Made by a program: the position numbers and the translations under genes. The notes under the pieces are model-generated. The model was not told where the DNA came from, ran no database searches, and saw nothing but the letters and a program-made list of their open reading frames with translations. Source: Variovorax sp. S12S4 (GTDB lineage: Bacteria > Pseudomonadota > Gammaproteobacteria > Burkholderiales > Burkholderiaceae_C). Taken from it: DNA of 64,000 nucleotides. Shown piece by piece: positions 11,117 through 40,603 of this stretch. Position 1 is the stretch's first letter. Each line of letters starts with the position of its first letter. The stretch lies in contig NZ_JALPKR020000002.1 of assembly GCF_023195515.1 (NCBI RefSeq), forward strand, positions 5,433,001 through 5,497,000, read 5' to 3'.

Positions 11117-14100
11117 ATGGCACTTGCACCGAAAAATGCACGGCATTGGAGCCAATGGACTGCAGCCGCCGGTCAATTGCCGGACACCCCGTTTGCAGCA
11201 GCCTGGCTCCTGTTGCAGGCCCGCTGGCTCGGCGCGCAACAAACGGTCCTGCACGAAGCCTCGGCGCACGGATCGCAAGCAGCCGCACGGCACACCGCGC
11301 TTGCCGAAACCCTCGATCCCGCGCAGCCGGCGGGCGCATGGCTCGCCACGCTCGACCAGAAGCGGCGCCAGGCCGCTGAAGCACCCGGCACAGACACGCC
11401 CGAGTCCTCGCCCAGCTTTCTCTGGCTCCGCGCCGAGACCGTCGCCCCCGCACTGCAGGCACCCCTTCACCTCTGGCTGAACGCCGCATCAGACGCGCCG
11501 CGCCTTCGCGCCGACGCCGCAGCAGGTCTTCTGGACGCCGCATCCATCGAGCAATTGCTGGCCGCAATCGCCGACACGGCCGCCGACCTGCTCTGCCGCC
11601 CCGACGCACCGCTGGGCGACATCCGCACCCTGCCCGCGGCTGACCGCGAGCAACAGCTCATCGCATGGAACACGCCGCCTGCCCCGCTGAACCGCCAACT
11701 CAATGTGGCGCAAATGTTCAGCCGCCAGGCCGCCGCCACGCCAGATGCGCCGGCCCTTGCCGAAGGCGATGCGCAGATGAGCTACAGCGAGCTCGAGCGC
11801 CGCTCCGGCCGGCTCGCCCAACGCCTGCAGCAAACGGGTGTGCAGGCAGGCGACGCCGTCGGGCTGCTGCTCGATCGTTCGATGGCGGCGGTGGTGGCCC
11901 ATCTGGGTGTTCTCAAGGCGGGCGCCGCCTATGTGCCGGTGCCGACGGACTTTCCGGCCGAGCGTATTGCCTACATGCTGGGCGAGGCGAACGCGCGGCT
12001 CACAATCGCCGCGCCCGCGCATCGCCATCTCGCGCCCGAGTCGATGGCCGTGCTGGTGCTCGACGAGTTGGCAGAAGTGCCTGACGGCGGTGAAGGCAGT
12101 GCGCCTGCGTCGTGGGAAGCCCCCGCCATCGACGGCGAATCGGTGGCGTACGTGATGTACACCTCTGGCTCGACCGGCACGCCCAAGGGCATCGAGATTT
12201 GCCATCGCGCAATCCTTCGCCTGGTAGTCGATGCCGGCTATGTCGAGCTGGCTCCCGGCCGCGCGATGCTGCATGCCGCGCCGCTCGGCTTCGATGCCTC
12301 CACGCTCGAAGTCTGGGGCCCGCTGCTCAATGGCGGCTGCTGCGTCATTCACGACGAGCGCGTACCCACGGGCGCCGGCCTCGCCCGCACCATTGCACGC
12401 CACAACGTGCACACCGCCTGGCTGACGGCGGCGCTGTTCAACGCGGTGATCGACGACGACCCGGCGCACCTCTCCGGCCTGCGGCACCTGCTTACCGGCG
12501 GCGAAGCTCTTTCGGTGCCGCATGTGCGGCGCGCGTTGGCCGCGCTTCCGCAGCTCGCGTTGAGCAACGGCTACGGCCCCACCGAGTGCACGACCTTCGC
12601 GGCCACCTACCGCATTCCTGCCGCGCTGTCCGCCGACCTGCGCTCGGTGCCGCTCGGGCGGCCCATCAACGACACGGTGCTGCGCGTGCTGAGCCCCACG
12701 ATGGCCCTGCTTCCCACGGGCCTGGCGGGCGAGCTCTGCATCGGCGGACACGGACTGGCGCGCGGCTACCTGGGGCAACCCGCGCTGACGGAACAACGCT
12801 TCGTGCCCGACCCCTTCGGCGCGCCGGGCGAGCGCCTCTACCGCACGGGCGACCTCGCGCGCTGGCTGCCCGACGGCACCCTCGAGTTCATCGGCCGGCG
12901 CGACGGGCAGGTCAAGATCCACGGCCACCGCATCGAAACCGGCGAGGTGGAAGCGGCCATCCTCGCCCATCCGGCGGTGAAGAACTGCGCCGTCGTCGCG
13001 CGGCCCGATGCCGACGGGCAGCTGAGCCTTGTCGCCTACCTTGTCGCGCGTTCGCAGGAAAAGCTCTCGTGGGAGGCACTGCGCGCGCACCTGGCGGCCC
13101 GCCTGCCCGCGGCCTTGCTGCCCTCCGCACAGGTCTGGCTCGATCAGCTGCCGGTTACCGCCAACGGCAAGCTCGACCGCAAGGCCCTGCCTGAGCCGGC
13201 CGGCGAGCGGCCCGATCTTGCACAGCCGTTCGAAGAGGCGCGCAACGCCACCGAGCAGCGCGTGTGCGAAGCCTTTGCGCGCGCGCTGCGCATCGCCAAG
13301 GTCGGCCGCAACGACAACTTCTTTGACCTCGGCGGCGATTCGATGCGCGTGCTGCAGGTGCTGGCCGATCTGCAGCGGGACAGCGCAAAGCCGCTTTCGA
13401 CCAATCTCTTCTTCCGCTATCCGACGCCGGCCGCAATGGCGGCTCAGCTGGCGCCCGCCGGTGATGCCGCGCCCACAGCCATCGATCGCCCACGCGCACC
13501 CCACGCTCAGGCAGGCACAGACTTGCAAGACGCCGTGGCGCTGGTCGCCACCGCGGGCCGCTTTCCGGGCGCCGCGGATGTCGAGCAGTTCTGGGACAAC
13601 CTGGTTGCCGGCCGCGACACCATCAGCTTCTTCGACGACGAGACGCTCGACGCCGGCGTGTCCGAGGCCTTGCGTAGCGACCCGGCCTATGTGCGCGCCC
13701 GCGGCGTGATCGAAGGCATCGAGAACTTCGACGCCGCCTTCTTCGGCATCGGCCCGAAGGAAGCGGCACTGATGGACCCGCAGCAGCGCGTGTTCCTCGA
13801 GATCTGCTGGGAGTGCCTGGAGCGTGCCGGCTATGTGCCCGACGCCGCCCCCGGCCCCGTGGGCGTGTATGCCGGCATGTACAACGCCAGCTACTTCCAG
13901 CGCCACGTCAGCACGCGGCCCGACCTCATCGAGGCCGTGGGCGAGTTCCAGGTGATGCTAGCCAACGAGAAGGACTACATCACCACGCGGGTGGCCAACC
14001 GGCTCAACCTCACCGGCCCCGCGGTGAGCGTGCACACCGCCTGCTCGACATCGCTGGTGGCCGTGGCGCATGCCTTTCATGCGCTGCGCACGGGCCAGTG

Positions 14101-16219
14101 CTATATGGCGCTGGCGGGCGGCGCGTCCGTTACCTGCCCCACGCGCAGCGGCTACCTCTACCAGGAGGGCTCGATGCTCTCGCCCGACGGCCGCACGCGC
14201 AGCTTCGATGCGCAGGCCCAGGGCACCGTGTTCAGCGATGGCGCCGCGGTGGTGCTGCTGAAGCGCCTGGCCGACGCACAGGCCGACGGCGACACCATCT
14301 ACGCGGTGCTGCGCAGTGCCGCCGTCAACAACGACGGCGGCGCCAAGGCGAGCTTTACCGCGCCCAGCGTGGATGGCCAAGCCGCGGTGATTCGCGCCGC
14401 ATTGGCTGCGGCCAATGTGGAGGCGCGCAGCATCTCGTATGTAGAAGCGCACGGCACGGCCACGCCAATGGGCGACCCGATCGAAGTCGAGGCGCTGACC
14501 TGTGCCTATGGCGAACACACCGATGCGCTGGGCTTCTGCACGCTCGGTTCGCTCAAGAGCAACGTGGGCCACATGGTCACGGCGGCCGGCGCGGCCGGGC
14601 TCATCAAGGCAGCGCTTTCGCTGCACCACGAAGTGATTCCGCCGACGGCGCACTTCACCGCACCGAACCCGTCCATCGACTTTTCGCGCACGCCCTTCTA
14701 CGTGACGCCAAGCCTTCAGCCGTGGCCGCGCGCCGCCGAGCCGCGCCGCGCAGGCGTCAGCTCCTTCGGCGTGGGCGGCACCAACGCGCATGTCATCGTC
14801 GAAGAGGCGCCCCCGCGCCCCGCTTCGCCAATCGCGGTCGGCCCCCAGGTGCTGCCGCTTTCAGCCCGCTCGGAGGCCGCACTCGCAATGGCCGCGGAGC
14901 AGCTGGCGGCGCACCTCGATGCAACGCCCGGGCTGCCGCTGGCCGATGTGGCCTATACGCTGGGCGTCGGCCGCAAGGCACACGCCTTCCGCCGCGCCGT
15001 GGTGGCCAGCGATGCGGCCGAAGCCGTTGCCGCGCTGCGTGGCAGCGACGGTGCATGGCGCGTCAGCGGCCACATCGATTCGCGCGCGCCGCAGCTGGTG
15101 CTGATGTTTCCCGGCCAGGGCGCGCAGTACGCCGGCATGGGCAAGAACCTGCATGCGAACGATCCCGTCTTCGCGGCCGCCTTCGATGCTTGCGTGAAAG
15201 CCTTCGGCAGCGCGCTCGACTTCGATTTGCGCGAGCGCATGTTCGAAGGCGAAGCCGATGCGCTGTCGCCCACCGCCGTGACGCAGCCCGCCATGTTTGC
15301 GCTCGAATACGCGCTGGCACGCAGGCTGCTCTCGCTGGGTGCGCGGCCGCATGCGCTGATCGGCCACAGCGTGGGTGAGTTCGTGGCCGCGGTGCTGGCG
15401 GGTGTGATGCGGCTCGAAGACGCCGCACGGCTCGTCGCCCGCCGCGGCGCGCTCATGCAGGCCCAACCCGCGGGGGCAATGCTGTCGGTGCGCCTGGGTG
15501 CCGAACAGCTCACGGCCAGGCTCGGCGATTCGCTATCTCTTGCCGCAGACAATGGCCCGACAGCTTGTGTGGCCGCCGGCCCCTTCGAGGCGATTGCGGC
15601 GCTGCAAGCCTCGCTGCAGGAAGAAGACATTCCGAGCCGCCCGCTGCAGACATCGCACGCATTCCACAGCGCAATGATGGACGGCGCAGTCGAGCCCTTC
15701 GAAGCGCTGGTCAGTGAAGTGGCACTGCATCCGCCGACGATTCCGATCTATTCGACGCTCACCGGCCGGCTGCTCGAAGACGCCGAGGCGACCAGCGCCA
15801 GCTACTGGGCCCGCCACCTGCGCGGCACCGTTCACTTTTCACCGGCCGTGCGCAACGTCATGGAACACACGACGCGGCCGCTCTTCGTCGAGGTCGGCCC
15901 GCGCAACGCACTGACCACGCTGGTGCGCCAGCACGGCGCCGGCGAAGTGATGCCGCTGCTGCATGGCGAGCCGGCCGACGAGGCCCGCACCCTGCGCCTG
16001 GCGCTGGCGCGCCTCTGGACATGCGGCGCCGATGTCGAGTTGTCGCGGCTCGCGGTGCGCACCGGCGCCCAGCGGGTTCGCCTGCCCACCTATCCGTTCG
16101 AGCGCAAGCGTTTCTGGGTCGACATCGCGGCCCCCGCGGCAAAGCCGGCCACCTTGCCGGAAGCCGCGCCGCCCGTGCCCGCCCTTTTCGTACCACCCCC
16201 GTTTTGGAGAAGACCGTGA
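11117..16219 (+). CDS. Hybrid NRPS/PKS: (C remnant)-A-T-KS-AT
   Basis: A 1700-residue megasynthase. Residues 1-175 match only the tail of a condensation domain. The adenylation domain (about 180-690) shows A3 YTSGSTGTPKG near 347, A5 NGYGPTE, A7 YRTGDLARW and A10 NGKLDRKAL. The carrier site is FFDLGGDSMRV near 734. The ketosynthase (about 800-1230) has active Cys in TACSTSL near 975, EAHGTATP near 1110 and KSNVGH near 1146. The acyltransferase (about 1325-1640) has GHSVGE near 1415 and HAFH near 1514, the malonyl-CoA type. Expected role: activate an amino acid, then extend it by one malonate. Residues lining the A pocket read roughly D-A-L-W-L-G-G-T-F-K; the substrate is not assigned. Start at ATG 11117 is uncertain. 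Confidence 0.92.
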   Translation: MALAPKNARHWSQWTAAAGQLPDTPFAAAWLLLQARWLGAQQTVLHEASAHGSQAAARHTALAETLDPAQPAGAWLATLDQKRRQAAEAPGTDTPESSPSFLWLRAETVAPALQAPLHLWLNAASDAPRLRADAAAGLLDAASIEQLLAAIADTAADLLCRPDAPLGDIRTLPAADREQQLIAWNTPPAPLNRQLNVAQMFSRQAAATPDAPALAEGDAQMSYSELERRSGRLAQRLQQTGVQAGDAVGLLLDRSMAAVVAHLGVLKAGAAYVPVPTDFPAERIAYMLGEANARLTIAAPAHRHLAPESMAVLVLDELAEVPDGGEGSAPASWEAPAIDGESVAYVMYTSGSTGTPKGIEICHRAILRLVVDAGYVELAPGRAMLHAAPLGFDASTLEVWGPLLNGGCCVIHDERVPTGAGLARTIARHNVHTAWLTAALFNAVIDDDPAHLSGLRHLLTGGEALSVPHVRRALAALPQLALSNGYGPTECTTFAATYRIPAALSADLRSVPLGRPINDTVLRVLSPTMALLPTGLAGELCIGGHGLARGYLGQPALTEQRFVPDPFGAPGERLYRTGDLARWLPDGTLEFIGRRDGQVKIHGHRIETGEVEAAILAHPAVKNCAVVARPDADGQLSLVAYLVARSQEKLSWEALRAHLAARLPAALLPSAQVWLDQLPVTANGKLDRKALPEPAGERPDLAQPFEEARNATEQRVCEAFARALRIAKVGRNDNFFDLGGDSMRVLQVLADLQRDSAKPLSTNLFFRYPTPAAMAAQLAPAGDAAPTAIDRPRAPHAQAGTDLQDAVALVATAGRFPGAADVEQFWDNLVAGRDTISFFDDETLDAGVSEALRSDPAYVRARGVIEGIENFDAAFFGIGPKEAALMDPQQRVFLEICWECLERAGYVPDAAPGPVGVYAGMYNASYFQRHVSTRPDLIEAVGEFQVMLANEKDYITTRVANRLNLTGPAVSVHTACSTSLVAVAHAFHALRTGQCYMALAGGASVTCPTRSGYLYQEGSMLSPDGRTRSFDAQAQGTVFSDGAAVVLLKRLADAQADGDTIYAVLRSAAVNNDGGAKASFTAPSVDGQAAVIRAALAAANVEARSISYVEAHGTATPMGDPIEVEALTCAYGEHTDALGFCTLGSLKSNVGHMVTAAGAAGLIKAALSLHHEVIPPTAHFTAPNPSIDFSRTPFYVTPSLQPWPRAAEPRRAGVSSFGVGGTNAHVIVEEAPPRPASPIAVGPQVLPLSARSEAALAMAAEQLAAHLDATPGLPLADVAYTLGVGRKAHAFRRAVVASDAAEAVAALRGSDGAWRVSGHIDSRAPQLVLMFPGQGAQYAGMGKNLHANDPVFAAAFDACVKAFGSALDFDLRERMFEGEADALSPTAVTQPAMFALEYALARRLLSLGARPHALIGHSVGEFVAAVLAGVMRLEDAARLVARRGALMQAQPAGAMLSVRLGAEQLTARLGDSLSLAADNGPTACVAAGPFEAIAALQASLQEEDIPSRPLQTSHAFHSAMMDGAVEPFEALVSEVALHPPTIPIYSTLTGRLLEDAEATSASYWARHLRGTVHFSPAVRNVMEHTTRPLFVEVGPRNALTTLVRQHGAGEVMPLLHGEPADEARTLRLALARLWTCGADVELSRLAVRTGAQRVRLPTYPFERKRFWVDIAAPAAKPATLPEAAPPVPALFVPPPFWRRP

Positions 16220-16686
16220 CAGTTGCTGCAGCGCCCCCGCTACCTGTTTCTTCCGCATCCGCTTCGCCGGAGGCCTCGCTGGACGCGCGGCTGCGGTCCT
16301 TGTTCGAAGACATCTCCGGCATCGACATGGCCCAGGCGGAAGGGAACGCCGCCTTCAGCGAGCTCGGGCTGGACTCGCTCACGCTGACCCAGGTCGCCAC
16401 GCAGATCAAGAAGCGCTTCAAGGTGAACCTGAGCTTCCGCCAGCTCATGGAAAACTACCGCAGCCTCGACGCGCTCGGCGCATTCCTGCGGGAAAGCCTG
16501 CCGGCCGAACCCGTAGCTGCAGTCGCGGCTGCTCCGGTAATCGCTCCGGTAGTGGCTCCGGTGAGCGCAGCCGTTCTTGTCCCTGCGGCAACGGCAATCA
16601 CTGTGCCGGCCGCCGTGCATCCGTCGCCCCTTTTCACGCCGCTGCAAGCCATGGCGGAATCGGCGCCACACCGCTTGTACAACTAG
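16216..16686 (+). CDS. Acyl carrier protein, probably the N-terminus of the aminotransferase
   Basis: GTG at 16216 overlaps the PKS stop (GTGA) and follows GGAGA at 16206-16210. The 156-residue frame holds one acyl carrier domain (residues about 20-95) with the phosphopantetheine site FSELGLDSLTLTQ, followed by an Ala/Pro/Val linker. It ends at TAG 16684-16686. In the next frame the linker continues into the aminotransferase with PLVQLVTQQMELMRQQL, the usual glutamine-rich run before fused aminotransferase domains. One missing G near 16661 would explain the split. The carrier accepts the malonyl-extended beta-keto chain from the preceding KS-AT. Confidence 0.8.
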   Translation: MTVAAAPPLPVSSASASPEASLDARLRSLFEDISGIDMAQAEGNAAFSELGLDSLTLTQVATQIKKRFKVNLSFRQLMENYRSLDALGAFLRESLPAEPVAAVAAAPVIAPVVAPVSAAVLVPAATAITVPAAVHPSPLFTPLQAMAESAPHRLYN

Positions 16687-16697: not shown

Positions 16698-18443
16698 ATG
16701 GAATTGATGCGACAGCAGCTCGCGCTGCTGTCCGGCGCCGGGGCGGATCTGTCCCATGACGCGGCTGCACAGGCGGTGCAACAGGCCACCCAGCCCGCCA
16801 TGCAGGCCGCCGTGCCGCAGCCGATGCCGGCCTCACCAGCGCTGCCCAATGCCGACGAGCCCGCCGCAGCCAAGGAGCCGGTGCGCTACGACGTGACAAA
16901 GGCTTTCGGCGCCATCGCACGCATCCACACGCAGCGCACCGCCGAGCCGAGCGGCCGGCAAAAGGCGCGGCTTGCGGCCTTCATGCGCCGCTACGTGGCA
17001 CGCACGCAAAAGAGCAAGCAGTTCACCGAAGCCAACCGCCCCCACATGGCCGACCCGCGCGTGGTCAACGGCTTTCGCCCGATCACCAAGGAGATCACCT
17101 ACCAGATCGTCATCGAGCGCTCCAAGGGGTCGAAGCTCTGGGACCTGGACGGCAACGAATACGTCGATGCGCTCAACGGCTTCGGCATGAACATGTTCGG
17201 TTGGCAGCCCGACTTCGTGCAGGAAGCCGTGCGCCGCCAACTCGACGAGGGCTATGAGATCGGCCCGCAGCATCCGCTGGCCGCCGAAGTCACGGCGCTC
17301 ATCTGCGAGCTCACGGGCAGCGACCGCGCGGCGCTTTGCAACACCGGCTCCGAAGCGGTCATGGCGGCGCTGCGCATCGCGCGCACGGTCACCGGGCGCA
17401 GCACCGTGGTGGTGTTCACGGGCTCCTACCACGGCACCTTCGACGAAGTGCTGGTTCGCGCCGGCAAGGGCGGCAAGGGCCTCTCGGCCGCGCCCGGCGT
17501 GATGAGCGGCATGTTCGGCGACATCCGCGTGCTGGACTACGGCACGCCCGAGGCGCTGGCCTTCATCCGCGAGAACGCCGAAGACCTTGCCGCCGTGCTG
17601 GCCGAGCCGGTGCAAAGCCGCCGCCCCGACTTCCAGCCGCGCGAGTTCCTGGAAGAAGTGCGTGCCATCACCGCGCAGAGCGGCAGCTGCCTGATCTTCG
17701 ACGAGGTCATCACGGGCTTTCGCGTCGGGCTGGGCGGCGCGCAAGAACTGTTCGGCATACGCGCCGACCTTGCCACCTACGGCAAGGTGATCGGCGGCGG
17801 CTTCCCGGTCGGCGTGATTGCCGGCAAGCGCGAGTTCATGGATGCGCTCGACGGCGGCGCCTGGCAGTACGGCGACGACTCCATTCCCGGCGTGGGCGTG
17901 ACCTACTTTGCCGGCACCTTCGTGCGGCACCCGCTCGCGCTGGCCGCGGCCAAGGCATCGCTCACCTATCTGAAAGAGGCTGGCCCCGCGCTGCAGATCG
18001 GCCTCAGCACCAGCACGGGCACGATGGCCGAGGAGCTCACTGCGTGGTGCGCCGAGGTGGGCGCGCCCATCGCCATCAGGCACTTCGCTTCGCTCTGGCG
18101 CGTGAGCTGGCTCGAAGACCATCCGCTGCAGGACCTGCTGTTCGCAATGATGCGCAGCCGCGGCGTGCACATCCTGGACAACTTCCCGTGCTTCCTCACG
18201 AGCGCGCACAGCGCCGAGGACATCGAGACCATCCAGCGCGCATTCAAGGAGTCCGTGGCCGAGATGCAGGAATCCGGATTCCTGCCGCGCCGCGCAACGG
18301 TCATCACCGGCTTCGACTACCGCAAGGCCGAGGAAGAAGACGGCTCCGTTCTCGCCCGCGACATCGATGGCCAGCCCTTCTGGTACGTGCCCGACACCAC
18401 CTCTTCCCCCAGCCATCTGATCAATGGAAAGGCCACAGCATGA
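16698..18443 (+). CDS. GSA-type PLP aminotransferase of the NRPS/PKS line
   Basis: A class III (glutamate-1-semialdehyde aminomutase-like) aminotransferase of about 581 residues from ATG 16698. No ribosome-binding site precedes that ATG, and coding sequence in this frame begins before it. Residues about 1-120 are a linker; the fold starts near SKGSKLWDLDGNEYVDALNG. Visible are the cofactor-binding NTGSEAVMAALRIAR, the Asp of IFDEVITGFR and the Schiff-base Lys of YGKVIGGGFPVG (near 361). Such domains, as in mycosubtilin and related lines, convert an ACP-bound beta-ketoacyl chain to a beta-aminoacyl chain. It overlaps the next gene by ATGA. Confidence 0.88.
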   Translation: MELMRQQLALLSGAGADLSHDAAAQAVQQATQPAMQAAVPQPMPASPALPNADEPAAAKEPVRYDVTKAFGAIARIHTQRTAEPSGRQKARLAAFMRRYVARTQKSKQFTEANRPHMADPRVVNGFRPITKEITYQIVIERSKGSKLWDLDGNEYVDALNGFGMNMFGWQPDFVQEAVRRQLDEGYEIGPQHPLAAEVTALICELTGSDRAALCNTGSEAVMAALRIARTVTGRSTVVVFTGSYHGTFDEVLVRAGKGGKGLSAAPGVMSGMFGDIRVLDYGTPEALAFIRENAEDLAAVLAEPVQSRRPDFQPREFLEEVRAITAQSGSCLIFDEVITGFRVGLGGAQELFGIRADLATYGKVIGGGFPVGVIAGKREFMDALDGGAWQYGDDSIPGVGVTYFAGTFVRHPLALAAAKASLTYLKEAGPALQIGLSTSTGTMAEELTAWCAEVGAPIAIRHFASLWRVSWLEDHPLQDLLFAMMRSRGVHILDNFPCFLTSAHSAEDIETIQRAFKESVAEMQESGFLPRRATVITGFDYRKAEEEDGSVLARDIDGQPFWYVPDTTSSPSHLINGKATA

Positions 18444-31240: not shown

Positions 31241-32569
31241 ATGAGAACACTCTGCTTCTGGTTCGGCATTGCGGCTGCGTTCGCATGCGCCCAGGTAGAC
31301 CCGGTCTGGGGCTACGCGGCGGTGTGCGTGCTCTCGCTGGTGCAGCTTGCAATGCTCGGCGCCGCGGGAACGAGCACGTTCCTGCTGATCCACTATACCG
31401 CGGTACTCACCTACTTCTCGGTGGCGCCGGCCATGCAGATCGCGGCCGACGTTTCGTTCTGGGACACGGGCGTGATCGGCGCGGGCGCGCACACGCAAGC
31501 CATCACGCTGCTGCTGCTGTACATGGCGGGTGTGGAGGCCGCCAGGTTCGGCATGCATGAGGCGGCGGCCCCGGCTTTCGCGCGCGGGGCCGGCGTGCCC
31601 GAGACGCAGATCGCCGGCGTTGCGCACCCTGTGCTGCTGCTGTTGAGCGGCACGGTCGCGGCGTTCGCGTCGCTGTTCATCCGCCCCGACCTGAACTTCA
31701 TCGCACGCGGCCTGCCGGACGAAGGCCAGAACCTCCCGGTCGATTTCATCGTCTATTCGACGCTGCCGAAGCTCATCGTGCTGATGTGCTTCGTGGCGCT
31801 GGCCATCCACGCATACCGCCGCCGGACGATCTGGTCGTGGTGTGCCGCCGGCTTTGCGCTGGTGCTGGCCGGCATTGCGGCCTATCCGGTCAACACGCCC
31901 CGGCAGATCCTGCTGATCGGCCTGCTGCCGCTTTTCATCTACGTGCTTGGCGTGAAGCGCCGCTGGCTGCTCGCCATGCTGATCTTCGGTGCCATCGCCG
32001 GCCTCGGCCCGGTGCTGAACCTGATTTCTCGCGGCAGCTTCTGGGGCGAGACGCTCACCACCTTTCCCTACAGCCAGGACTTCGACGCGATGTACATCGT
32101 GGCCGGGCTGTTGGAGCGCGCGCCCGAACCAGAGCTCGGTTTCGGGCGCTACCTGTTGTCGGCCTTCTCTTTCATGCTGCCGCGCAGCCTGAAGATGTAT
32201 CCGGAGTTCGACCCCCTCGGATGGCCGGCCGTGCTGGGCAACTTCTCGCAGAGCAATCTCTCGCTGCCGCCATTCACCACGGCGTACTTCGACTTCGGCC
32301 TGGCGGGGCCGGTGATGCTTGGCCTGGCGGTCTCGGCCCTGTTCCGCGTGCTCGACAAGGTGGCCCAGCCGCATGCCGCGCTCTCGAGCACCTACCTGTG
32401 CGCTCTGGTGCTGCTGGCCGCATATGTGCCCTTCATGCGCGGCCCGATTCTCGGGTGGGGCCCGTTCGCGGCCTCGGGGCTGATCGCGGCCGTTTTTGCC
32501 GGGCTGCTGAGCTCGCGGTTTCGCCAGCCGCGCCGCGCGCCGGCGATCTACGCCCAGGGCACGACGTGA
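31241..32569 (+). CDS. Wzy-like O-antigen/EPS polymerase, putative
   Basis: A 442-residue integral membrane protein with about ten or more hydrophobic segments, starting ATG 31241. A periplasmic loop in the second half (about 265-340, FWGETLTTFPYSQDFDAMY to LPRSLKMYPEFD) has the arrangement of polymerase catalytic loops. Sequence alone is poorly conserved in this class; the call rests on topology and its place between the sugar-nucleotide gene and glycosyltransferases in a locus that also has Wza, Wzc and a flippase. Confidence 0.7.
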   Translation: MRTLCFWFGIAAAFACAQVDPVWGYAAVCVLSLVQLAMLGAAGTSTFLLIHYTAVLTYFSVAPAMQIAADVSFWDTGVIGAGAHTQAITLLLLYMAGVEAARFGMHEAAAPAFARGAGVPETQIAGVAHPVLLLLSGTVAAFASLFIRPDLNFIARGLPDEGQNLPVDFIVYSTLPKLIVLMCFVALAIHAYRRRTIWSWCAAGFALVLAGIAAYPVNTPRQILLIGLLPLFIYVLGVKRRWLLAMLIFGAIAGLGPVLNLISRGSFWGETLTTFPYSQDFDAMYIVAGLLERAPEPELGFGRYLLSAFSFMLPRSLKMYPEFDPLGWPAVLGNFSQSNLSLPPFTTAYFDFGLAGPVMLGLAVSALFRVLDKVAQPHAALSSTYLCALVLLAAYVPFMRGPILGWGPFAASGLIAAVFAGLLSSRFRQPRRAPAIYAQGTT

Positions 32570-32578: not shown

Positions 32579-33673
32579 ATGTACAAATACCTCTTCTACG
32601 ACTCGATCAGCCTCAACAAGGGCGCGGGCGGCGTGCTGAATGTGTCCGATCTTCTGCTGCGCAGGATGCGCATGTGCAAGGGCGACCACATCCAGCCGAT
32701 CAGCGAGCGGCACCCGCGCATATACGCCGCGGCGCAGCGCCTGAAGATCAGCCGGTTCCTGCTGGAGATAGCGCTCTACAACTATCACCGGCTGAGGGCG
32801 CTGGTATCCGGCGAGACGGTGTTCTCGCTGTTCCCCAACTACTTCCTTCCGTTCACGCTTTTCGGGCGCCACCGCGATTCGATCGTGGTGGTGCACGACC
32901 TGCAGTACAAGGCCTATCCGCAGTATTTCAGCCGCACCAAGCGCCTGTGGCTCGACTGGTGCCTGCGGCGCGTGGCGCGCAGCGCGGCCGATGTGGTGTT
33001 CATCAGCAGGAGCAGCCAGCAGGATTTCGAGCGCTACTTCGGGCGCTGCGAGCACCCGAACGTCATCTTCAACCCGGTCGATGCGACGCGCTCGCCCGGC
33101 CCGCCGGGCCCGGTCAAGCCGGCACGCGCGGCGGCCATTGGCGAGCGCTACCTCATCGCCTCGTACCACTACTACCCGCACAAGAACTTCGACGGCACGC
33201 TGAAGCTGTTCGAGCGCATGAAGCGCGAGGGCCTGGTCGACTGGCTGGACGTTACCGGCAACGGCGCCGCGGAGGTGAAGCGGATGGCCGCCCGCATGGA
33301 TCCCGCCATCAGCGGCTGCGTGCGCCACAGGGGAATGGTTTCGCGCAAGGAGCTGACGCAGCTGTACTGCGGCGCGGCGGCCTTCATTTCGCTGTCGGCG
33401 TTCGAGGGCTTCAACCTTTCCGCCGCCGAGGCCGCCACGCTGGGCGTGCCGCTGCTGCTGTCGGACATTCCGGTGCACAGGGAGCTGTTCGGCGACTACG
33501 CCTTCTTCATCGGCAACGGCTCCACCGACCTCGACGGTTTGTCGCGCTACCTGGCCGAGCACCGGGCCAAGCAGCCGGCCTGGCCGCTCGCCGAAGCTTG
33601 CGCACCGGGCACGGTGGCAAGGCGCTACCTCACGCTCAAGCATGAAGCCGTTTCGCTCGCGGGGGCCATGTGA
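32579..33673 (+). CDS. Glycosyltransferase family 4
   Basis: A 364-residue GT-B glycosyltransferase. The C-terminal half carries the GT4 block: YLIASYHYYPHKNFDGTLKL, then RGMVSRKELTQLYCGAAAF and the nucleotide-sugar contact SLSAFEGFNLSAAEAATLGVP. The N-terminus (YLFYDSISLNKGAGGVLNV) is the acceptor side. Donor and linkage cannot be predicted. Its stop overlaps the next start (TGATG). Confidence 0.88.
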   Translation: MYKYLFYDSISLNKGAGGVLNVSDLLLRRMRMCKGDHIQPISERHPRIYAAAQRLKISRFLLEIALYNYHRLRALVSGETVFSLFPNYFLPFTLFGRHRDSIVVVHDLQYKAYPQYFSRTKRLWLDWCLRRVARSAADVVFISRSSQQDFERYFGRCEHPNVIFNPVDATRSPGPPGPVKPARAAAIGERYLIASYHYYPHKNFDGTLKLFERMKREGLVDWLDVTGNGAAEVKRMAARMDPAISGCVRHRGMVSRKELTQLYCGAAAFISLSAFEGFNLSAAEAATLGVPLLLSDIPVHRELFGDYAFFIGNGSTDLDGLSRYLAEHRAKQPAWPLAEACAPGTVARRYLTLKHEAVSLAGAM

Positions 33674-34614
33674 TGACCTGGCTTGCAGGCGCTCTTCGGC
33701 GGCTTCTCCCGGCATGGCTGCTGTGCGCGGCTTGCGCGGCGTCGGCCGCGCCGCCGATGACGGGCTTCGGGGTGATGGTGCATTACCTGCCCGACAAGCA
33801 GACCATTGCCGATGTGGCGCGATTCGATGCCGAGGCGCTTGCGGCATCGCTCGCACGCATGCGGGCCTCCTACCTCATCCTGACGCTCGGCCAGAACAAC
33901 GGCCAGTTCATCGCGCCCAATGCCGCGCTGGAGCTGCTGTGCCCCGGCAGCATCGAGAACCGCCCGCCGCGCGACCTGCCGATGGAGATCGGCCGCGCCT
34001 TGCAGCGCCGTGGCATCGGGCTGGTGCTGTATTTGCCCTTCCGTGCGCCGCAGGGCGATGCCTACCTGATGGATTGCCTGGGCGATGTTTCGGAGCAGAA
34101 GCCGCCGCCCGCGCGCTTCATCGCCGGATGGACCGCGGTGGTCCGGGAATGGTCGGAACACTACGGCGCGCTGGCCAAGGGCTGGTGGTTCGACGGTGTC
34201 TACAACACCAAGGGCATGTCGGCCGAAGACTGGAACGGGCTCTGCGCCGCCGCGCGCACCGGTGCGCCCAAGCGGTGGCTCGCCTTCAACTCCGGCGAGG
34301 GGCCGCAGCGCTTCAGTGCCAAGGCCGCGCCGTGCCAGAACCTCATGGCGGGCGAGCTCCTGCAGCCTCCGGCGCCTTCGGTGCCTTCCACCACCCCCGC
34401 ATCGGGCCTGGCGTTCCACGTGCTCACGCCGCTCGGCGCGTCGTGGGGCCAGACCACTGCGCCTCGCTTCACGGCCGCCCAGGTGCGCGACTGGATCGCC
34501 GATGCGAAAGCGCGCGGCGGGCTGTTCACGCTCGATCTGCCGCTGGACTCGGACTACCGCTTTCTACCCACGCACATCGCGCTGGTGCGCAGCGCCACCG
34601 CGCCGCGGCCCTGA
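33673..34614 (+). CDS. Secreted alpha-L-fucosidase-like protein
   Basis: A 313-residue protein with a cleavable signal (hydrophobic LLPAWLLCAACAASAAPP). The body reads like a shortened GH29 TIM barrel: YLILTLGQNNGQFIAPN occupies the place of the LTAKHHDGF strand of fucosidases, and GWWFDGVYNTKG the place of the W-x-D-G nucleophile strand. The match is by eye and partial, so activity is unproven. A periplasmic trimming or quality-control enzyme for a fucose-containing polymer is plausible because GDP-fucose synthase sits in the same operon. GTG 33670 is the alternative start. Confidence 0.5.
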   Translation: MTWLAGALRRLLPAWLLCAACAASAAPPMTGFGVMVHYLPDKQTIADVARFDAEALAASLARMRASYLILTLGQNNGQFIAPNAALELLCPGSIENRPPRDLPMEIGRALQRRGIGLVLYLPFRAPQGDAYLMDCLGDVSEQKPPPARFIAGWTAVVREWSEHYGALAKGWWFDGVYNTKGMSAEDWNGLCAAARTGAPKRWLAFNSGEGPQRFSAKAAPCQNLMAGELLQPPAPSVPSTTPASGLAFHVLTPLGASWGQTTAPRFTAAQVRDWIADAKARGGLFTLDLPLDSDYRFLPTHIALVRSATAPRP

Positions 34615-34654: not shown

Positions 34655-35587
34655 ATGACCAACGCTCTCGCATTCATCGTGGTGGAAGACCGCCAGAACA
34701 AGACCCTGCTGCTGTGCCGCGAGTCCGCGGCCCGGGCCGAGGAGCATCTCGTCGTGCTGGCGGGCACCGACGCCGGCCCCGACTACGAGCGCCTGTGCAG
34801 CCACTATGTGCACTTGTCGAGCAATTCGCCGGAGTTCGAGAAGATCTGCTTCCGGCGCTACTTCCTCCTGGCCGAATATCTCAAGGCGCATCCGGAGTGC
34901 CGCGAGTTCGTGCTGATCGACAGCGACGTGCTGCTGTTTCGCGGCGTCGGCGCGCACATACGGCGCGTGGCCGGAAAGGCGGATTTCTCCGGCTCCTACA
35001 TGCGCCCCCGCGACGGCTGGGACCCATGCCAGATATCGCCGCACGTGAGCTACTGGACCGCGATGGGCCTGCAGCGCTTCATCGCCTTTGTGCTCAACAC
35101 CTACGCCACGCCCGCCGGCCGCCGCAAGCTGCGCGCGATTGCGGCGCGGTTCGCAGCCCGCGGCGTGCGCGGCGGCGTGTCCGACATGACGCTGCTCCAC
35201 CTCTGGGCCCAGGCGAGCGGCAATGCGGATCCGATCAACCGCGTGTTCGGCGGACGGATGATCGACCACAACATCAACGGCGGCCACAACCTGCTGTTGA
35301 ACGAATTCCAGGCCCGGGGCGGCGCCAAGCGCATCGTGTATGTCGACGGCCAGCCCAGCGTGGTCACGCCGGCCGGCGAGCTGGTGGGCGTGATGGCCCT
35401 GCACTTCCAGGGCAGCGCAAAGATGGCCATGTCGCACGTGCTGCATGGCCGCGTGCACACGGCCGCCGCGCTGACGTATGTGCTGCAGGCGGCGCGCCGC
35501 GCCAAGAACTGGGCCTTCGGCCGCGGCCTGCTCGCGCAGCGTGCCGCCGGCGCCGGCCCATTCGCGGGCGCCTCCGCGCCGAAATGA
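34655..35587 (+). CDS. GT-A fold glycosyltransferase-like protein
   Basis: A 310-residue soluble protein with a nucleotide-sugar transferase look: FVLIDSDVLLF gives a DxD-type metal motif near residue 90 and SDMTLLHLW a later conserved acidic patch, as in capsular or lipopolysaccharide GT-A enzymes. No exact family was recognised. It overlaps the flippase by ATGA and is therefore part of the operon. Confidence 0.55.
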   Translation: MTNALAFIVVEDRQNKTLLLCRESAARAEEHLVVLAGTDAGPDYERLCSHYVHLSSNSPEFEKICFRRYFLLAEYLKAHPECREFVLIDSDVLLFRGVGAHIRRVAGKADFSGSYMRPRDGWDPCQISPHVSYWTAMGLQRFIAFVLNTYATPAGRRKLRAIAARFAARGVRGGVSDMTLLHLWAQASGNADPINRVFGGRMIDHNINGGHNLLLNEFQARGGAKRIVYVDGQPSVVTPAGELVGVMALHFQGSAKMAMSHVLHGRVHTAAALTYVLQAARRAKNWAFGRGLLAQRAAGAGPFAGASAPK

Positions 35588-36882
35588 CGCGGCCCGGCAC
35601 GCAACAGGCGCAGGCCATGAACCTCCTCGACCGCTCCATCACGCTGCCCGGCTTTCGCGCCGTGCAGTTGCGCGGCCTGGGTGCGCTGGCTTCGCGACTG
35701 TATGCCTACCTGTCGGGCTTCCTGGCCGTCTTTCTGATGGCGGCGTATGTCTCGCCCGCGGAGTTCGGCGAGTACTCGATCTACCAGTCGGTGCTGGAAG
35801 CGGCACTGGTGGTGGGCACGCTGGGCAGTTCGCTTCTCTTTTCGCGCGAAGCCGGCAGCGTGCCGCCGGGCGTGCGCCGGGGCGACGTGCTGCGCACCCT
35901 GGCCATCGGCATTCCGCTGGCCACGCTGCTGATCGTGCTGATCCTGAAGGTTCAGCACCTGCCGGTGGCGGGCGCGCCCTTTGTGCTGATGGTATCCACG
36001 CTGGCGGTGTTCTCGTTCATCAGCCTGCGCCTTTCCTACAGCCGGGGGCTGGGCTATGCGGGGCTGCTCAACCTGGAGACGGGCATCCGCTCGAGCATTC
36101 TGGTGCTGGGCATCGCGGCGCTCATCGTGCTGGGGTCCGAGCTGGGTGCCTGGCAGCTGCTGCTCATCAACCTCTTGGCCTTTTTGATCGTGGGCGCGGC
36201 CAGCATGCGCACGGGCTGGGCTGCAGGTCCGCCGCGCGGCCGGCCGGCGCTGCGCCTGCAGTCGCAGGGCGGCGCCACCGTTTATTCGCTGCTGATGTTC
36301 CTGCTTCGCAAGTCGGACCTGCTGGTGGTCGCCTTCTTCATGCCGCTCGGATACGTGGGCGCTTTCAAGGTCGCGTTTCTGCTGGCGGAAGCACCGTCGC
36401 AGTTCGTGCAGGCATTTCTCTATACGAAGACGCGCGCCATGCTGGGTGCCGAGGCCGGCAAGCTCGATGCGTCGACGCTGCAGCTGGCCAAGCAATCGTT
36501 CCTGCTGGGCTGCGTGCTCTTCGCCGGCCTGGCCGCGCTGATCACGGTGGCCGCGCCGCTGCTGAAGGTGGGGCACGAGGCGCTGGAGATCTTTCTGTGC
36601 ATTGCGCCGTACTTCCTGCTGCGCACCTACACGATCCACCACGAGATGCTGCTCGCGCTCAAGAGCCCGGTGGCCGCACTCGGTGGCTGGGCATTGCTCG
36701 AAGTGGCGCTGCGGCTTGTGTCCTACGGCGTGGTGGTGTCGGTTTTTCCCGGCAAGCCGCACTACGTTTTCTTCATCGCCTTCTTCACCGACTTTCTTCT
36801 CTACGAAGTGCGCATGCGCGCGCTGTTCGGCTTCTACCCGATCGTGCGGCTGGTCCGCGGTTCCTTTGAAAGGGCATCGTGA
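35584..36882 (+). CDS. Wzx-like polysaccharide flippase
   Basis: A 432-residue membrane protein of the MATE/polysaccharide-transporter type with about 12 hydrophobic segments. The N-terminal LASRLYAYLSGFLAVFLMAAYVSPAEFGEYSIYQSV region is typical of these proteins. It should move lipid-linked repeat units across the inner membrane. Start is the ATGA overlap at 35584; ATG 35617 is an alternative. Its stop overlaps the next GTG start. Confidence 0.82.
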   Translation: MTRPGTQQAQAMNLLDRSITLPGFRAVQLRGLGALASRLYAYLSGFLAVFLMAAYVSPAEFGEYSIYQSVLEAALVVGTLGSSLLFSREAGSVPPGVRRGDVLRTLAIGIPLATLLIVLILKVQHLPVAGAPFVLMVSTLAVFSFISLRLSYSRGLGYAGLLNLETGIRSSILVLGIAALIVLGSELGAWQLLLINLLAFLIVGAASMRTGWAAGPPRGRPALRLQSQGGATVYSLLMFLLRKSDLLVVAFFMPLGYVGAFKVAFLLAEAPSQFVQAFLYTKTRAMLGAEAGKLDASTLQLAKQSFLLGCVLFAGLAALITVAAPLLKVGHEALEIFLCIAPYFLLRTYTIHHEMLLALKSPVAALGGWALLEVALRLVSYGVVVSVFPGKPHYVFFIAFFTDFLLYEVRMRALFGFYPIVRLVRGSFERAS

Positions 36883-38159
36883 AAATTCTGCTTTACTCGA
36901 TGAACTTCACGCCCGAGCTGGTCGGCATTGGCAAGTACTCGGGCGAAATGGCGCAGTGGCTGCATGCAAAGGGCCACGACGTGCGCGTGATCGCATCGCC
37001 GCCCTTCTTTCCGAACTGGGCGCCGTTCGAGGGGTATTCGGCCTGGGCCTACCGCAAGACCGATTGGAACGGCATCACGGTCTGGCGCGCGCCGACCTGG
37101 ATACCCGCACGCCCGCGGGCGCTCGCGCGCCTGGCGCATCTGTTCTCGTTCATGGTGTCGAGCTTGCCCTTGCTCTTCGCGCAGATCCGCTGGAAGCCGG
37201 ACGTGGTCTTCGTGGTCGAGCCGCCCCTTTTCTGCGCGCCGTCCGCGCTCCTCTTCTCGCGGATGCTCGGCATCAAGTCGTGGCTGCACATCCAGGACTA
37301 CGAGGTGGACGCCGCCTTTGGCATGGGCCTGGTGCGCGGCGCGCGGGTGCGGCGCTTCGCGCTCTCGGTGGAACGCTGGCTGCTTGGCCGGTTCACCCGC
37401 GTATCGACCATCTCGGCCGCCATGCTCGACAAGGCGAAGGACAAGGGCATTGACGAAACCCGGCTGGTGCTGCTGCCCAACTGGGTGGATGTGCGCTCGA
37501 TCTTTCCGCAACCCGCCGATGCGCCGGATGCGGGCGGCGCCACCGGCTACCGGAGCATGCTCGGCATTCCGGCGGACGAGGTGGTGGTGCTCTATGCGGG
37601 CAGCCTGGGCGCCAAGCAGGGCATCGAGTTGCTGGCCGATGCGGCGCACCGCCTGGTCGCGGCGGCGCATATCCACTTCGTGTTCTGCGGCAACGGCCCG
37701 AGCCGCGAGCCGCTGAAGGCAGCCTGCGCAAACTTGCCGCGCGTTCACTTCATCGACCTGCAGCCTGCCGAGCGGCTCAACGAACTGCTGGGCATGGCGG
37801 ACATCCACGTGCTGCCGCAGCGCGCCGACGCCGCGGACCTGGTGATGCCTTCGAAGCTGGCCGGCATGCTCGCGAGCGGCAAGGCCGTGATCGTGACGGC
37901 CCATGCGGGCACCGAGCTGAGCAACGTGGTGTCCGGCCGCGGCATGGTGGTTGCCCCCGGCGATGCGGACGCGCTGGCCGACGCCATCGCGCAGCTTGCG
38001 ATGTCTCGCCCGCAACGCGAAGCCATGGGCGCGGCCGCCCGTTCGTTCGCGGAAACAGAGCTGGACCGCAACGCCATTCTCCAGCGCCTGGAGCGCGAAC
38101 TGATGCGCTGCGTGGCCGAGCCGCTCGCGGTTCCCGCCCCCACCGGATCCAGGCCATGA
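36879..38159 (+). CDS. WcaI-family glycosyltransferase (GT4)
   Basis: A 426-residue GT-B enzyme very like colanic-acid WcaI proteins: MKILLYSMNFTPELVGIGKYSGEMA, IASPPFFPNW, WKPDVVFVVEPPLFC and the late block PSKLAGMLASGKAVIVTA. In colanic acid loci WcaI acts with fucose enzymes, matching fcl here. It ends the coupled gene series and is followed by a strong hairpin. Confidence 0.88.
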   Translation: MKILLYSMNFTPELVGIGKYSGEMAQWLHAKGHDVRVIASPPFFPNWAPFEGYSAWAYRKTDWNGITVWRAPTWIPARPRALARLAHLFSFMVSSLPLLFAQIRWKPDVVFVVEPPLFCAPSALLFSRMLGIKSWLHIQDYEVDAAFGMGLVRGARVRRFALSVERWLLGRFTRVSTISAAMLDKAKDKGIDETRLVLLPNWVDVRSIFPQPADAPDAGGATGYRSMLGIPADEVVVLYAGSLGAKQGIELLADAAHRLVAAAHIHFVFCGNGPSREPLKAACANLPRVHFIDLQPAERLNELLGMADIHVLPQRADAADLVMPSKLAGMLASGKAVIVTAHAGTELSNVVSGRGMVVAPGDADALADAIAQLAMSRPQREAMGAAARSFAETELDRNAILQRLERELMRCVAEPLAVPAPTGSRP

Positions 38160-38193: not shown

Positions 38194-38213
38194 GCCGGCC
38201 CCCGAGGGCCGGC
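38194..38213 (+). terminator. Perfect 8-bp hairpin after the glycosyltransferase series
   Basis: GCCGGCCC (38194-38201), tetraloop CCGA, GGGCCGGC (38206-38213). No T tract follows, so it may be a Rho-assisted end, an mRNA-stabilising stem or an attenuator before the regulator gene. Confidence 0.45.
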
Positions 38214-38270
38214 GTATCTCGATGCAAACGTGAAACCTCCTCCAACCCTAACAACTCTCTAGGAACCTTC

Positions 38271-39059
38271 ATGTCCGACACCGCGCCTCACTCTTCCGAC
38301 TCCCCTGACTCCGCTCGGGCGTCCGAGCGCCGCACGGTTTATCCGTCCGGCGTCTGTCCTCCGGCCGAACCGCTGTGGCCGCATTTCCTGACGGGGCAGG
38401 AAGACGCCCCGGTTCGCGTGCTGCTCGTCGACGACGACGAGTTCATGCGCCGCGTGATTGCCCAAGAGCTGCTGTCGGACATGCGCATCCAGCTGGAGGC
38501 GCAGGCCGGCAGCGTGCGCGACGGCCGCCGCCTGCTGGCGACCCATGAATTCGACGTGCTGATGGTCGACCTCCGGCTCGGCGACGGATCCGGCTTCGAA
38601 CTCATTCGCGAGGCGCGCAAGCTGCATCGCTACTGCGAAATCATCGTCATCTCGGCCATGGAAGACGACGCCCACGTGATGCACGCCTTCGAGCTTGGCG
38701 CCACGGGCTACCTGCTCAAGCACGCCTGGCTGCAGAGCTTTGCGCAGGCCGTGCTGCAGGTGGTGAACGGCGGCGCGGCCATCACGCCCAAGCTGGCGCG
38801 CCGGCTGCTGACACGCATGAACCAGCACACCAGCGAGCCGCCCCCGGTAGAAGCACCGCAGCGCGAGGTAACGCTGACGACGCGCGAGCGCGAAGTGCTC
38901 CGCTGCGTGGCGCGCGGCTGCGTGTCGAAGGAGATCAGCATGAGGCTCGGAATCTCGGGGCAGACGGTCAACGCCCACATCAAGAACATCTACAAGAAGC
39001 TGCAGGTGCATTCGCGCGCGCAGGCGGTGAGCTTCGCCACCAACACCGGGCAGCTCTGA
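38271..39059 (+). CDS. LuxR/NarL-type response regulator, orphan
   Basis: A 262-residue two-domain regulator. After a 45-residue extension rich in Ser and Pro comes a receiver domain (VLLVDDDEFMRR, phospho-acceptor Asp in VLMVDLRLGDG, Lys in GYLLKHAWL) and a C-terminal LuxR helix-turn-helix (LTTREREVLRCVARGCVSKEIS, then TVNAHIKNIYKKL). No histidine kinase gene is beside it. It sits inside the polysaccharide locus and is the likely regulator of that locus. Confidence 0.9.
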   Translation: MSDTAPHSSDSPDSARASERRTVYPSGVCPPAEPLWPHFLTGQEDAPVRVLLVDDDEFMRRVIAQELLSDMRIQLEAQAGSVRDGRRLLATHEFDVLMVDLRLGDGSGFELIREARKLHRYCEIIVISAMEDDAHVMHAFELGATGYLLKHAWLQSFAQAVLQVVNGGAAITPKLARRLLTRMNQHTSEPPPVEAPQREVTLTTREREVLRCVARGCVSKEISMRLGISGQTVNAHIKNIYKKLQVHSRAQAVSFATNTGQL

Positions 39060-39094
39060 GCGCGCCGGCCTTCACCTTCATCAAGGACGTTGTC

Positions 39095-40603
39095 ATGAAC
39101 ACCCCCACCATCCATCCCGTCGTGCTCTGCGGAGGCAGCGGCACTCGCCTGTGGCCGCTCTCGCGCAAGACGCTTCCCAAGCAGTTCGCACCGCTGATCG
39201 GCGACAAGAGCCTGCTGCAGATGACGCTGGAGCGCCTGTGCAGCCTGAACAGCAACATCACCTGCATCGCATCGGAAGACCACCGCTTCCTGGTGCGCGA
39301 GGCCGTCGAGAAAGCCGGTGCCACCGGGCGGCAGATCCTGGAGCCGATGGCGCGCAACACCGCGGCGGCCATGGCGGCTGCGGCACTGCTCGCCAACAAG
39401 GACGACCTGCTTCTGTTCGCCCCCTCCGACCACCACATTCCCGACACGCCGCTGTTCGCCGAGACGATACGGCGCGGCGTCGATGCGGCGCTGGCCGGGC
39501 ATATCGTGACCTTCGGCGTGATGCCTTCCTTTGCGAGCACTGCCTATGGCTACATCGAAGCCGGCGCCGTGTCGGCCGACGGCTGCAGCCGGGCCGTGGT
39601 GCGCTTCGTCGAAAAGCCCACGGCGTCGGTGGCCGAATCGCTGATCCTGCACGGCGGCTACAGCTGGAACGCGGGCATCTTCCTGGTGCAGGCAAGTACG
39701 CTGATTGCGGCGTTGAACGCGCACGCCCCCGACATCCTGCTGGCCTGCCAGCGTGCAACCGCCGGTGTTTCGAGCGAAGGCAGTTTCGACCGCCTGGACC
39801 CGGAGGCCTTCCAAGCCTGCCGCAGCGACAGCATCGACTATGCGGTGCTCGAAAAGCAGCAGAACATTGCCGTGGTGAAGTTCGAAGGCGCCTGGAGCGA
39901 CGTGGGAAGCTGGAACGCCGTGGCCACGCTGCATCCGGAAGACGGAACCGGCAACCGCCTGAGCGGCCAGGCCAGGACGCTGCGTGCGCGCAATACCTTC
40001 ATTCATGCGCCGCACCGGCCGGTGGTGGCCCTGGGCACCGAGGACCTGATCATCGTGGACACCCCCGACGCCGTGCTGGTGGCGAAGGCGGATTGCGCCG
40101 AGCAGGTCGGCGAGGTGGTGCGCATGCTCGCGCAGCAAGGCCAGGCCGAAGCGACCGAACACCGGCGGGTGGTGCGGCCTTGGGGCGCCTACGACAGGCT
40201 CGACTTCGGCGACCGCTTCCAGGTGAAGCGCCTCACCGTGAATCCGGGCGCCAAGCTGTCGCTGCAAATGCACCACCACCGCGCCGAGCATTGGATTGTG
40301 GTGCGCGGCACCGCCAAGGCCACCTGCGACGGCCAGGTCAGCCTGGTGCGGGAGAACGAATCCATCTACCTGCCCTCGGGCGCGATCCACCGGCTCGAAA
40401 ACCCGGGCAAGACCATGCTCGAAGTGATCGAGGTGCAGACCGGCAGCTACCTGGGCGAGGACGACATCGTGCGCTTCGACGACACCTACGGCCGCTGCGC
40501 CTCCATCAGGGCGCAGCCCGAAACGGCGACGGCGATGCCGCCCGAAGCGCTGGCTGCAAGCGCCAGCGCGAGTGCGGGTGCACAGCTAGCGGCACACCCC
40601 TGA
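39095..40603 (+). CDS. manC: Mannose-1-phosphate guanylyltransferase / mannose-6-phosphate isomerase
   Basis: A 502-residue bifunctional enzyme. The N-terminal nucleotidyltransferase has VVLCGGSGTRLWPLSRKTLPKQF-type start (read here at residues 7-29), with FVEKP and WNAGIF blocks; the C-terminal cupin isomerase has RPWGAYDRLD, GAKLSLQMHHHRAEHW and LPSGAIHRLENPG. It makes GDP-mannose for mannose and, through Gmd and Fcl, fucose. AAGGA precedes the start. The last 25 residues are an alanine-rich extension. Confidence 0.94.
   Translation: MNTPTIHPVVLCGGSGTRLWPLSRKTLPKQFAPLIGDKSLLQMTLERLCSLNSNITCIASEDHRFLVREAVEKAGATGRQILEPMARNTAAAMAAAALLANKDDLLLFAPSDHHIPDTPLFAETIRRGVDAALAGHIVTFGVMPSFASTAYGYIEAGAVSADGCSRAVVRFVEKPTASVAESLILHGGYSWNAGIFLVQASTLIAALNAHAPDILLACQRATAGVSSEGSFDRLDPEAFQACRSDSIDYAVLEKQQNIAVVKFEGAWSDVGSWNAVATLHPEDGTGNRLSGQARTLRARNTFIHAPHRPVVALGTEDLIIVDTPDAVLVAKADCAEQVGEVVRMLAQQGQAEATEHRRVVRPWGAYDRLDFGDRFQVKRLTVNPGAKLSLQMHHHRAEHWIVVRGTAKATCDGQVSLVRENESIYLPSGAIHRLENPGKTMLEVIEVQTGSYLGEDDIVRFDDTYGRCASIRAQPETATAMPPEALAASASASAGAQLAAHP

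Follow-up and report, generated by a model that had tools for sequence, protein, structure and literature searches.

We analyzed a 64,000-nt stretch (hereinafter the window) of the 6.0 Mb genome of Variovorax sp. S12S4, whose named close relatives are members of Variovorax, and found that a modular nonribosomal peptide synthetase/polyketide synthase (NRPS/PKS) assembly line and a set of exopolysaccharide (EPS) genes form one syntenic unit. Domain calls and short gaps bear out the original prediction of a one-strand run from the NRPS/PKS through a 4'-phosphopantetheinyl transferase (PPTase) and two α/β-hydrolase-family proteins (Hyd2 and Hyd1) to Wza, Wzc, an initiating sugar phosphotransferase (PGT), Fcl, Wzy, and Wzx (Table 1), with intergenic gaps of -8 to +64 bp over 11117-38159 and of 111 and 35 bp in the next two cases. 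The gene content listed in that prediction was likewise recovered, with the addition of a response regulator between WcaI and ManC (38271-39059) that it had omitted. All parts of a Wzx/Wzy-dependent EPS system are present, Wza, Wzc, and PGT by strong matches and Wzx and Wzy by weak ones only; GDP-fucose synthesis requires gmd in addition to ManC and Fcl, and this gene is at another place in the window's genome, and 3' of the locus in V. paradoxus VAI-C (the one plasmid-collection record matching Hyd2), where the gene at the Wzx position is annotated 'polysaccharide biosynthesis protein'. As required of a modular NRPS/PKS, the A, T, C, KS, and AT domains bear active-site motifs. The retention of the unit, the recurrence of its 5' part with a second EPS operon, the residues that its hydrolases have in common with the exosortase-type pair, and assembly lines that end without a thioesterase (TE) suggest that the line, the hydrolase pair, and the EPS genes are probably functionally linked. 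We further propose, with slightly less than even confidence, that the glycan, or a precursor of it, may receive a 3,4-diaminoacyl-peptide through the action of the pair.

Among 101 Variovorax genomes, the window Wzy is present in 44, Hyd1 in 95, and Wzc-like proteins in 98. A distance of 5.3-6.7 kb separates Wzy from Hyd1, both on the same strand, in 43 of these genomes (the 44th being split across contigs), and the EPS polymerase was never found apart from the cassette in the genus (0/44, counting the contig-split genome). The idea that the join is unique to the window strain was rejected on these counts, and an EPS locus usually lacking the NRPS is not what was observed for this Wzy. All 16 EPS-joined Variovorax loci that were fetched keep the window's gene order, sometimes with extra genes (no PPTase match was obtained in G032 and G044, reading of G017 stopped at Wzc, and the 'Wzx' rows of the survey, made with an out-of-frame query, show homologous DNA only). 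Hyd1 and Wza are separated by no more than 82 bp in all 16, with the Wza start inferred in four, and no terminator-like site was found in this gap on the + strand. These locus and gap counts retain G024 and G042, in which the C-A-T-C-T gene is split over two frames. Of four EPS-joined loci whose flanks were checked, two have neighboring genes matching the window's and two do not, which indicates that the unit is kept where its neighborhood is not. Two fragmented assemblies (G009 and G028) have an EPS-type cassette, and no Wzy was found in them.

The most telling new evidence is the recurrence of the arrangement in another genus with a non-homologous EPS operon. In a sample of the family, Hyd2 was recovered from 32 of 399 genomes, in 14 of 141 genera; of the 28 genomes outside Variovorax, 22 were fetched (all except G437, G512, G431, G646, G651, and G545). 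One genome of another genus (G290, locus L176, with a break inside its C-A-T-C-T gene) has a joint locus like the window's, and the window Wzy is otherwise found only in Variovorax within the sample (4/399). In G636 of genus g207 (L196), the cassette, PPTase, Hyd2, and Hyd1 run uninterrupted into a second EPS operon, non-homologous to the first, with the order GT2 glycosyltransferase (GT), polysaccharide deacetylase, Wzy_C-type polymerase (WzyX), GT4, deacetylase, GT4, and ElyC (families checked on g224 and g207 proteins; the ElyC of L196 matches in two pieces). The joint locus is the same in G306 of this genus (L191, L198), where a transposase-like gene, identified by reading, lies inside one of the GT genes (L191:16469-17824); in g207 locus L197 (G511), NRPS-like genes and a Hyd2 match occur with weak GT matches only. 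In the four g224 loci read (L186, L189, L190, and L192), PPTase-Hyd2-Hyd1 heads the second EPS operon, and the coordinates of Hyd2 and WzyX in a fifth genome of that genus (G437) put 3 kb between them; in all five genomes the C-A-T-C-T NRPS matches are unlinked, being hundreds of kb distant or on a different contig, and those of G640 are partial. WzyX was not found in the 101 Variovorax genomes and occurs in nine of the 399 family-sample genomes, only one of which (G430) has no Hyd2 match and also no full-length C-A-T-C-T match; as WzyX was picked because it flanks the pair, the Fisher value obtained on this sample is inflated and is not relied on here. In two g302 loci an NRPS and the pair are accompanied by a Wzy_C-type polymerase, which lies some kb further on, on the opposite strand, as does a deacetylase in one of them (L182).

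In a Hyd1+Hyd2 tree, the EPS-joined pairs of Variovorax and g191 form one clade (1.00) inside the EPS-free cassettes, and the EPS-linked pairs of g207 and g224 form a separate clade (1.00). The aminotransferase tree likewise has EPS-joined Variovorax and g191 in one clade (1.00) and two g207 sequences in another (0.99). These separate clades suggest that linkage to EPS originated, or persisted, in two or more lines whose EPS genes are non-homologous. An operon fusion without functional coupling, in which the EPS genes merely use the promoter of the cassette, would agree with the separability of the cassette from EPS in much of the genus; we consider it improbable given that the PPTase-Hyd2-Hyd1-EPS order recurs with a different EPS type and that the Variovorax unit is retained in all Wzy-bearing genomes save the contig-split one, though its flanking genes match in only half of the loci checked.

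The hydrolase pair provides a second line of evidence. We surveyed the residues of 78 Hyd1 and 79 Hyd2 sequences, drawn from exosortase-type loci as well as from Variovorax and further genera (for L188 the 'XrtA-type' label comes from reading; L158-L163, which score below the TIGR03101 cut-off, are only presumptively exosortase loci). The nucleophile position of Hyd1 is Cys in 77 of 78, the exception (L197) being a Hyd2-like gene picked by the script, and His257 is likewise conserved in 77 of 78; the corresponding nucleophile site of Hyd2 is Arg in 78 of 79, with Trp247 in all 79. These residues point to Hyd1 as the probable active Cys enzyme, with Hyd2 as a non-catalytic partner. Exosortase-A (XrtA/PEP-CTERM) EPS loci encode a TIGR03098 ligase, a TIGR03099 pyridoxal phosphate (PLP)-dependent decarboxylase, an acyl carrier protein (ACP), and the TIGR03100 and TIGR03101 hydrolases, and share with the window two adjacent hydrolases whose nucleophile position is occupied by Cys in Hyd1 and by Arg in Hyd2. 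They differ from it in that the window activator is a modular NRPS/PKS (TIGR03098 matches reach 208 and 240 of the 592 bits of the cut-off, and both are to NRPS A domains), the PLP enzyme is an aminotransferase (AMT), the hydrolases score under the TIGR cut-offs, and the locus has no exosortase. TIGR03101 for Hyd2 and TIGR03100 for Hyd1 are the best NCBIfam matches in the window and in all five other pairs scanned, each time below cut-off (in the window, 58 of 168 bits for TIGR03100 and 99 of 203 for TIGR03101). Thus, the likeness of these hydrolases to the exosortase-A pair holds for their order and residues but not for their scores. Similarly, the statement that there is no exosortase is true of the locus but not of the genome, whose sole PF09721 (exosortase-family) match lies 3.7 Mb away (G000 C2:1715410-1716141).

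In this assembly, the A-T-KS-AT, ACP, and aminotransferase parts stand in three frames and had been taken for separate genes. We rejected this interpretation because A-T-KS-AT-ACP-AMT is a single open reading frame in all 37 related loci carrying the whole stretch, indicating one protein in the family. The AT, ACP, and AMT motifs fall in one frame in 22 of 27 loci from named records, among them L021, whose Hyd2 is 99% identical to that of the window (the remaining five are cut, or their motifs leave the frame unresolved). The GTGA overlap and the 11 bp gap accordingly stem from two assembly-specific frame breaks, at 16216 and about 16690, due either to sequencing error or to recent mutation; the pieces were analyzed separately, with the frames left as they stand. 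An in-frame ATG lies at 10916, upstream of the A-T-KS-AT start at 11117.

The window and most of the relatives aligned with it carry the KS (TACSTS), AT (GHS), C (HHxxxDG), and T (GG(D/H)S) motifs; four aligned sequences, not traced to individual rows, have HR in place of HH in the second C motif. The A1 domain scores over the cut-off of TIGR01733 (amino-acid type). Its specificity code is DA(L/F)W(L/I/V/F)GGTF in 17/17 EPS-joined sequences, and the A2 code is DMPQWGGVY in 14 of the 17. We take the A1 code of the window, DALWLGGTF, to be Val-type. No KR domain was found in the window megasynthase with Pfam, and the β-amino-acid-containing group of the original prediction is indeed what would be expected of KS-AT-ACP-AMT without a KR. 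It can be refined to a 3,4-diamino acid: the lack of a KR, the presumed Val-type A1, malonate, and transamination together would yield a 3,4-diamino-5-methylhexanoyl group. A terminal thioesterase or reductase is not strictly required in the NRPS/PKS family, and none was found in the 72 aa past the last T motif of the window NRPS. More generally, the NRPS ahead of the Hyd pair stops 54-88 residues past the last T motif in 18 of 19 loci, lines of differing length included, which is too short for a TE, and no GxSxG was seen in these ends (the count retains L176, and the 19th locus could not be read). Such TE-less ends fit a role of the pair in release or transfer in trans. C-A-T-C-T paralogs of about 53% identity also occur without the rest of the cassette in four genomes (G004, G007, G003, and G014; L062, L064, L065, and L066).

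From these features, the following pathway may be envisaged. The amino acid selected by A1 (valine, on the assumed meaning of its code) would be extended by malonate, and the unreduced β-ketone would be aminated by the aminotransferase to give a 3,4-diamino acid at the start of the peptide. One residue selected by A2 would be added next, possibly followed by a third on the last T domain. Hyd1, with its Cys nucleophile, and the nucleophile-less Hyd2, presumably as a complex, would then take the peptide off the last T domain and, acting as a transferase rather than a hydrolase, move it onto an amine or hydroxyl group of a sugar, either in a fucose-containing repeat unit or in the lipid-linked precursor of that unit. 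The decorated unit would be flipped, polymerized, and exported by Wzx, Wzy, Wzc, and Wza. A more general form, to which we give rather tentative credence, is that TE-less NRPS/PKS lines decorate EPS and that the Cys-hydrolase/pseudohydrolase pair is an acyltransferase from carrier protein to glycan, including in exosortase loci. If true, natural-product assembly lines would put non-proteinogenic peptides on slime polysaccharides, and the paired hydrolases 1 and 2 of exosortase EPS loci would gain a testable role.

Several observations weigh against such decoration. In 49 of the 101 Variovorax genomes only a diverged Hyd1 copy was found, and in six none at the E-value used. None of the 21 EPS queries matched in any of the 19 diverged pair loci fetched, in stretches of about 40 kb for most and 12-30 kb for three; EPS-free here denotes no match to these queries (one of which was an out-of-frame reading of the Wzx gene, the right open reading frame being 35584-36882), and not the absence of every polysaccharide gene. 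Twelve of the diverged loci were read 20 kb further upstream; G018 showed GT2-like matches there, about 11 kb ahead of its cassette, and the remaining 11 showed none. Viewed gene by gene, the diverged loci share a MiaB context, and several have RND pump-like genes, as judged by reading. The cassette can therefore exist apart from EPS. Moreover, the EPS-joined Variovorax cassettes form one clade, so that the 44 genomes count as one event. The comparison of gene order thus supports the original prediction in the syntenic unit of the Wzy-bearing genomes but not in those with a diverged copy alone; separation of the NRPS and EPS genes in relatives, which it had named as evidence to the contrary, is found for that half of the picture. 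Outside Variovorax, six genera (g246, g208, g266, g251, g180, and g293) have the pair near an NRPS, which in g266 is not upstream of the pair, with no EPS-query match within about 10 kb on each side, and g207 genome G578 has the pair with the g207 EPS genes, no adjacent cassette, and only partial NRPS matches genome-wide. Among 14 well-known genomes used as a control, seven have TIGR03101 matches below cut-off and none above it; kinship to the exosortase pair consequently rests on pairing and residues, not on score. The PDB relatives of Hyd1 and Hyd2 by sequence are mostly esterase-type hydrolases, and no dedicated acyltransferase to sugars was recognized in the window locus. Finally, A1 varies among the EPS-free copies, as in free natural products: the code is Val-type in 11 of 20 EPS-free Variovorax copies and of another type in nine, as against 17/17 when EPS-joined (p = 0.0015, with phylogeny ignored and the EPS-joined copies being one clade; G011, a contig without A1, and G057, outside the genus, are excluded). 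Some of the nine other codes resemble what we take to be Thr, Pro, or Gly codes. In five EPS-free copies (G005, G001, G036, G022, and G023) the A1 codes differ as if swapped between lines.

These points bear on the main rival explanation, that the product is a free small peptide (a signal, antimicrobial, or metal binder) for which Hyd1/Hyd2 act as a trans thioesterase, the EPS genes being co-transcribed in some lineages since both are made in biofilms and the peptide possibly lying unbonded in the matrix. The diverged loci lacking EPS matches, the A1 variation, and the RND pump-like genes adjoining several EPS-free copies are all in its favor, and TE-less NRPS ends suit a trans thioesterase. 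A T1PKS/NRPS cluster of one Variovorax strain, possibly the present one, is reported to have been assigned by antiSMASH to 'microsclerodermin' with 21% similarity (PMC10946135). A free peptide accords poorly with the join to a second, non-homologous EPS operon, with the g224 pair heading EPS genes without an adjacent NRPS, and with residues that are the same as in the exosortase-type pair; in addition, domain scans recognized no other exporter within the EPS-joined operon of the window. We therefore regard it as possible, if somewhat doubtful. A peptide carried by another envelope component (lipopolysaccharide (LPS), lipid, or protein), with the EPS genes as partners in the same surface coat, appears quite unlikely. 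A TIGR04325 methyltransferase beside both an EPS-free copy (L184) and an EPS-joined one (VAI-C), and a GDSL-like protein beside L184, with comparable genes noted on reading at further EPS-free copies, would suit such a carrier; yet no LPS or lipid gene was seen recurring beside the cassette in the loci read, by reading and with no search. The methyltransferase genes adjoin the cassette at L199:3580-4353 and L184:14126-14932, and reading of other EPS-free copies turned up genes like them next to the cassette. With glycan decoration as with these alternatives, Variovorax strains joined and unjoined to EPS, along with g224 and its unlinked parts, make the question open to experiment.

β-Amino acid NRPS/PKS lines with an in-line glutamate-1-semialdehyde (GSA)-type aminotransferase include those of microginin, microcystin (McyE), and the iturin type. 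The window line resembles these in its A-T-KS-AT-ACP-AMT order without a KR followed by a condensation module, and differs in its amino-acid-type A1, the lack of a TE, a last unit that is C-T, and the EPS operon 3' of it. Colanic acid-type Wzx/Wzy operons similarly have Wza, Wzc, PGT, Fcl, WcaI, ManC, and Wzx- and Wzy-like genes; unlike them, the window operon is preceded on the same strand by a peptide line, PPTase, and hydrolase pair. The thiopeptidoglycan sheath of Sphaerotilus and Leptothrix is a peptide-bearing glycan of related bacteria. In searches of the open-access PMC literature, we found no report of NRPS-type peptide decoration of slime polysaccharide. The variochelin siderophore cluster, described as starting from a fatty acyl group and as having modules for Arg, Asp, Ser, Pro, and Orn (PMC10999976), was rejected as a counterpart on domain order. 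In the main text of Haft 2006, the terms hydrolase, ligase, acyl carrier, and decarboxylase do not occur (PMC1569441).

Table 1. Features of the NRPS/PKS-EPS locus, in window positions.
Feature	Position	Strand	Basis
NRPS/PKS, A-T-KS-AT part	11117..16219	+	Pfam; A1 code DALWLGGTF
ACP part of the same megasynthase, other frame in this assembly	16216..16686	+	PP-binding match
PLP class-III (GSA-type) aminotransferase part, third frame in this assembly	16698..18443	+	domain matches
NRPS C-A-T-C-T, without thioesterase	18440..23449	+	domain matches; A2 code DMPQWGGVY
PPTase	23455..24171	+	domain match
Hyd2, α/β-hydrolase family, Arg at nucleophile position, TIGR03101-like	24168..24986	+	
Hyd1, α/β-hydrolase family, Cys at nucleophile position, TIGR03100-like	24979..25905	+	
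Wza, outer-membrane polysaccharide export	25953..27143	+	strong match
Wzc, tyrosine autokinase/chain-length protein	27183..29495	+	strong match
Initiating sugar phosphotransferase (PGT, Bac_transf)	29492..30154	+	strong match
GDP-L-fucose synthase (Fcl)	30219..31196	+	478 bits, just below the cut-off of 500
Wzy-like polymerase	31241..32569	+	weak TIGR04370 match
GT4 glycosyltransferase	32579..33673	+	domain match
Glycosidase-like protein	33670..34614	+	weak α-L-fucosidase match, below cut-off
Conserved protein, no family match	34655..35587	+	glycosyltransferase-like by reading only
Wzx-like flippase	35584..36882	+	weak Polysacc_synt match
WcaI-family glycosyltransferase	36879..38159	+	family match
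LuxR-type response regulator, between WcaI and ManC	38271..39059	+	domain match
ManC, mannose-1-phosphate guanylyltransferase/mannose-6-phosphate isomerase	39095..40603	+	domain match

Within this fucose EPS operon, the weak match at 33670-34614 suggests that an α-L-fucosidase-like protein may be encoded among the genes for the polymer. Upstream of the locus, positions 1834-7043 of the window, where GC is lower at the window start, contain a Bro-N antirepressor-like gene, an integrase-like gene (5446-6816, - strand), and a tRNA-Gly (6970-7043), and resemble one end of an integrated element that stops 4 kb before the NRPS.

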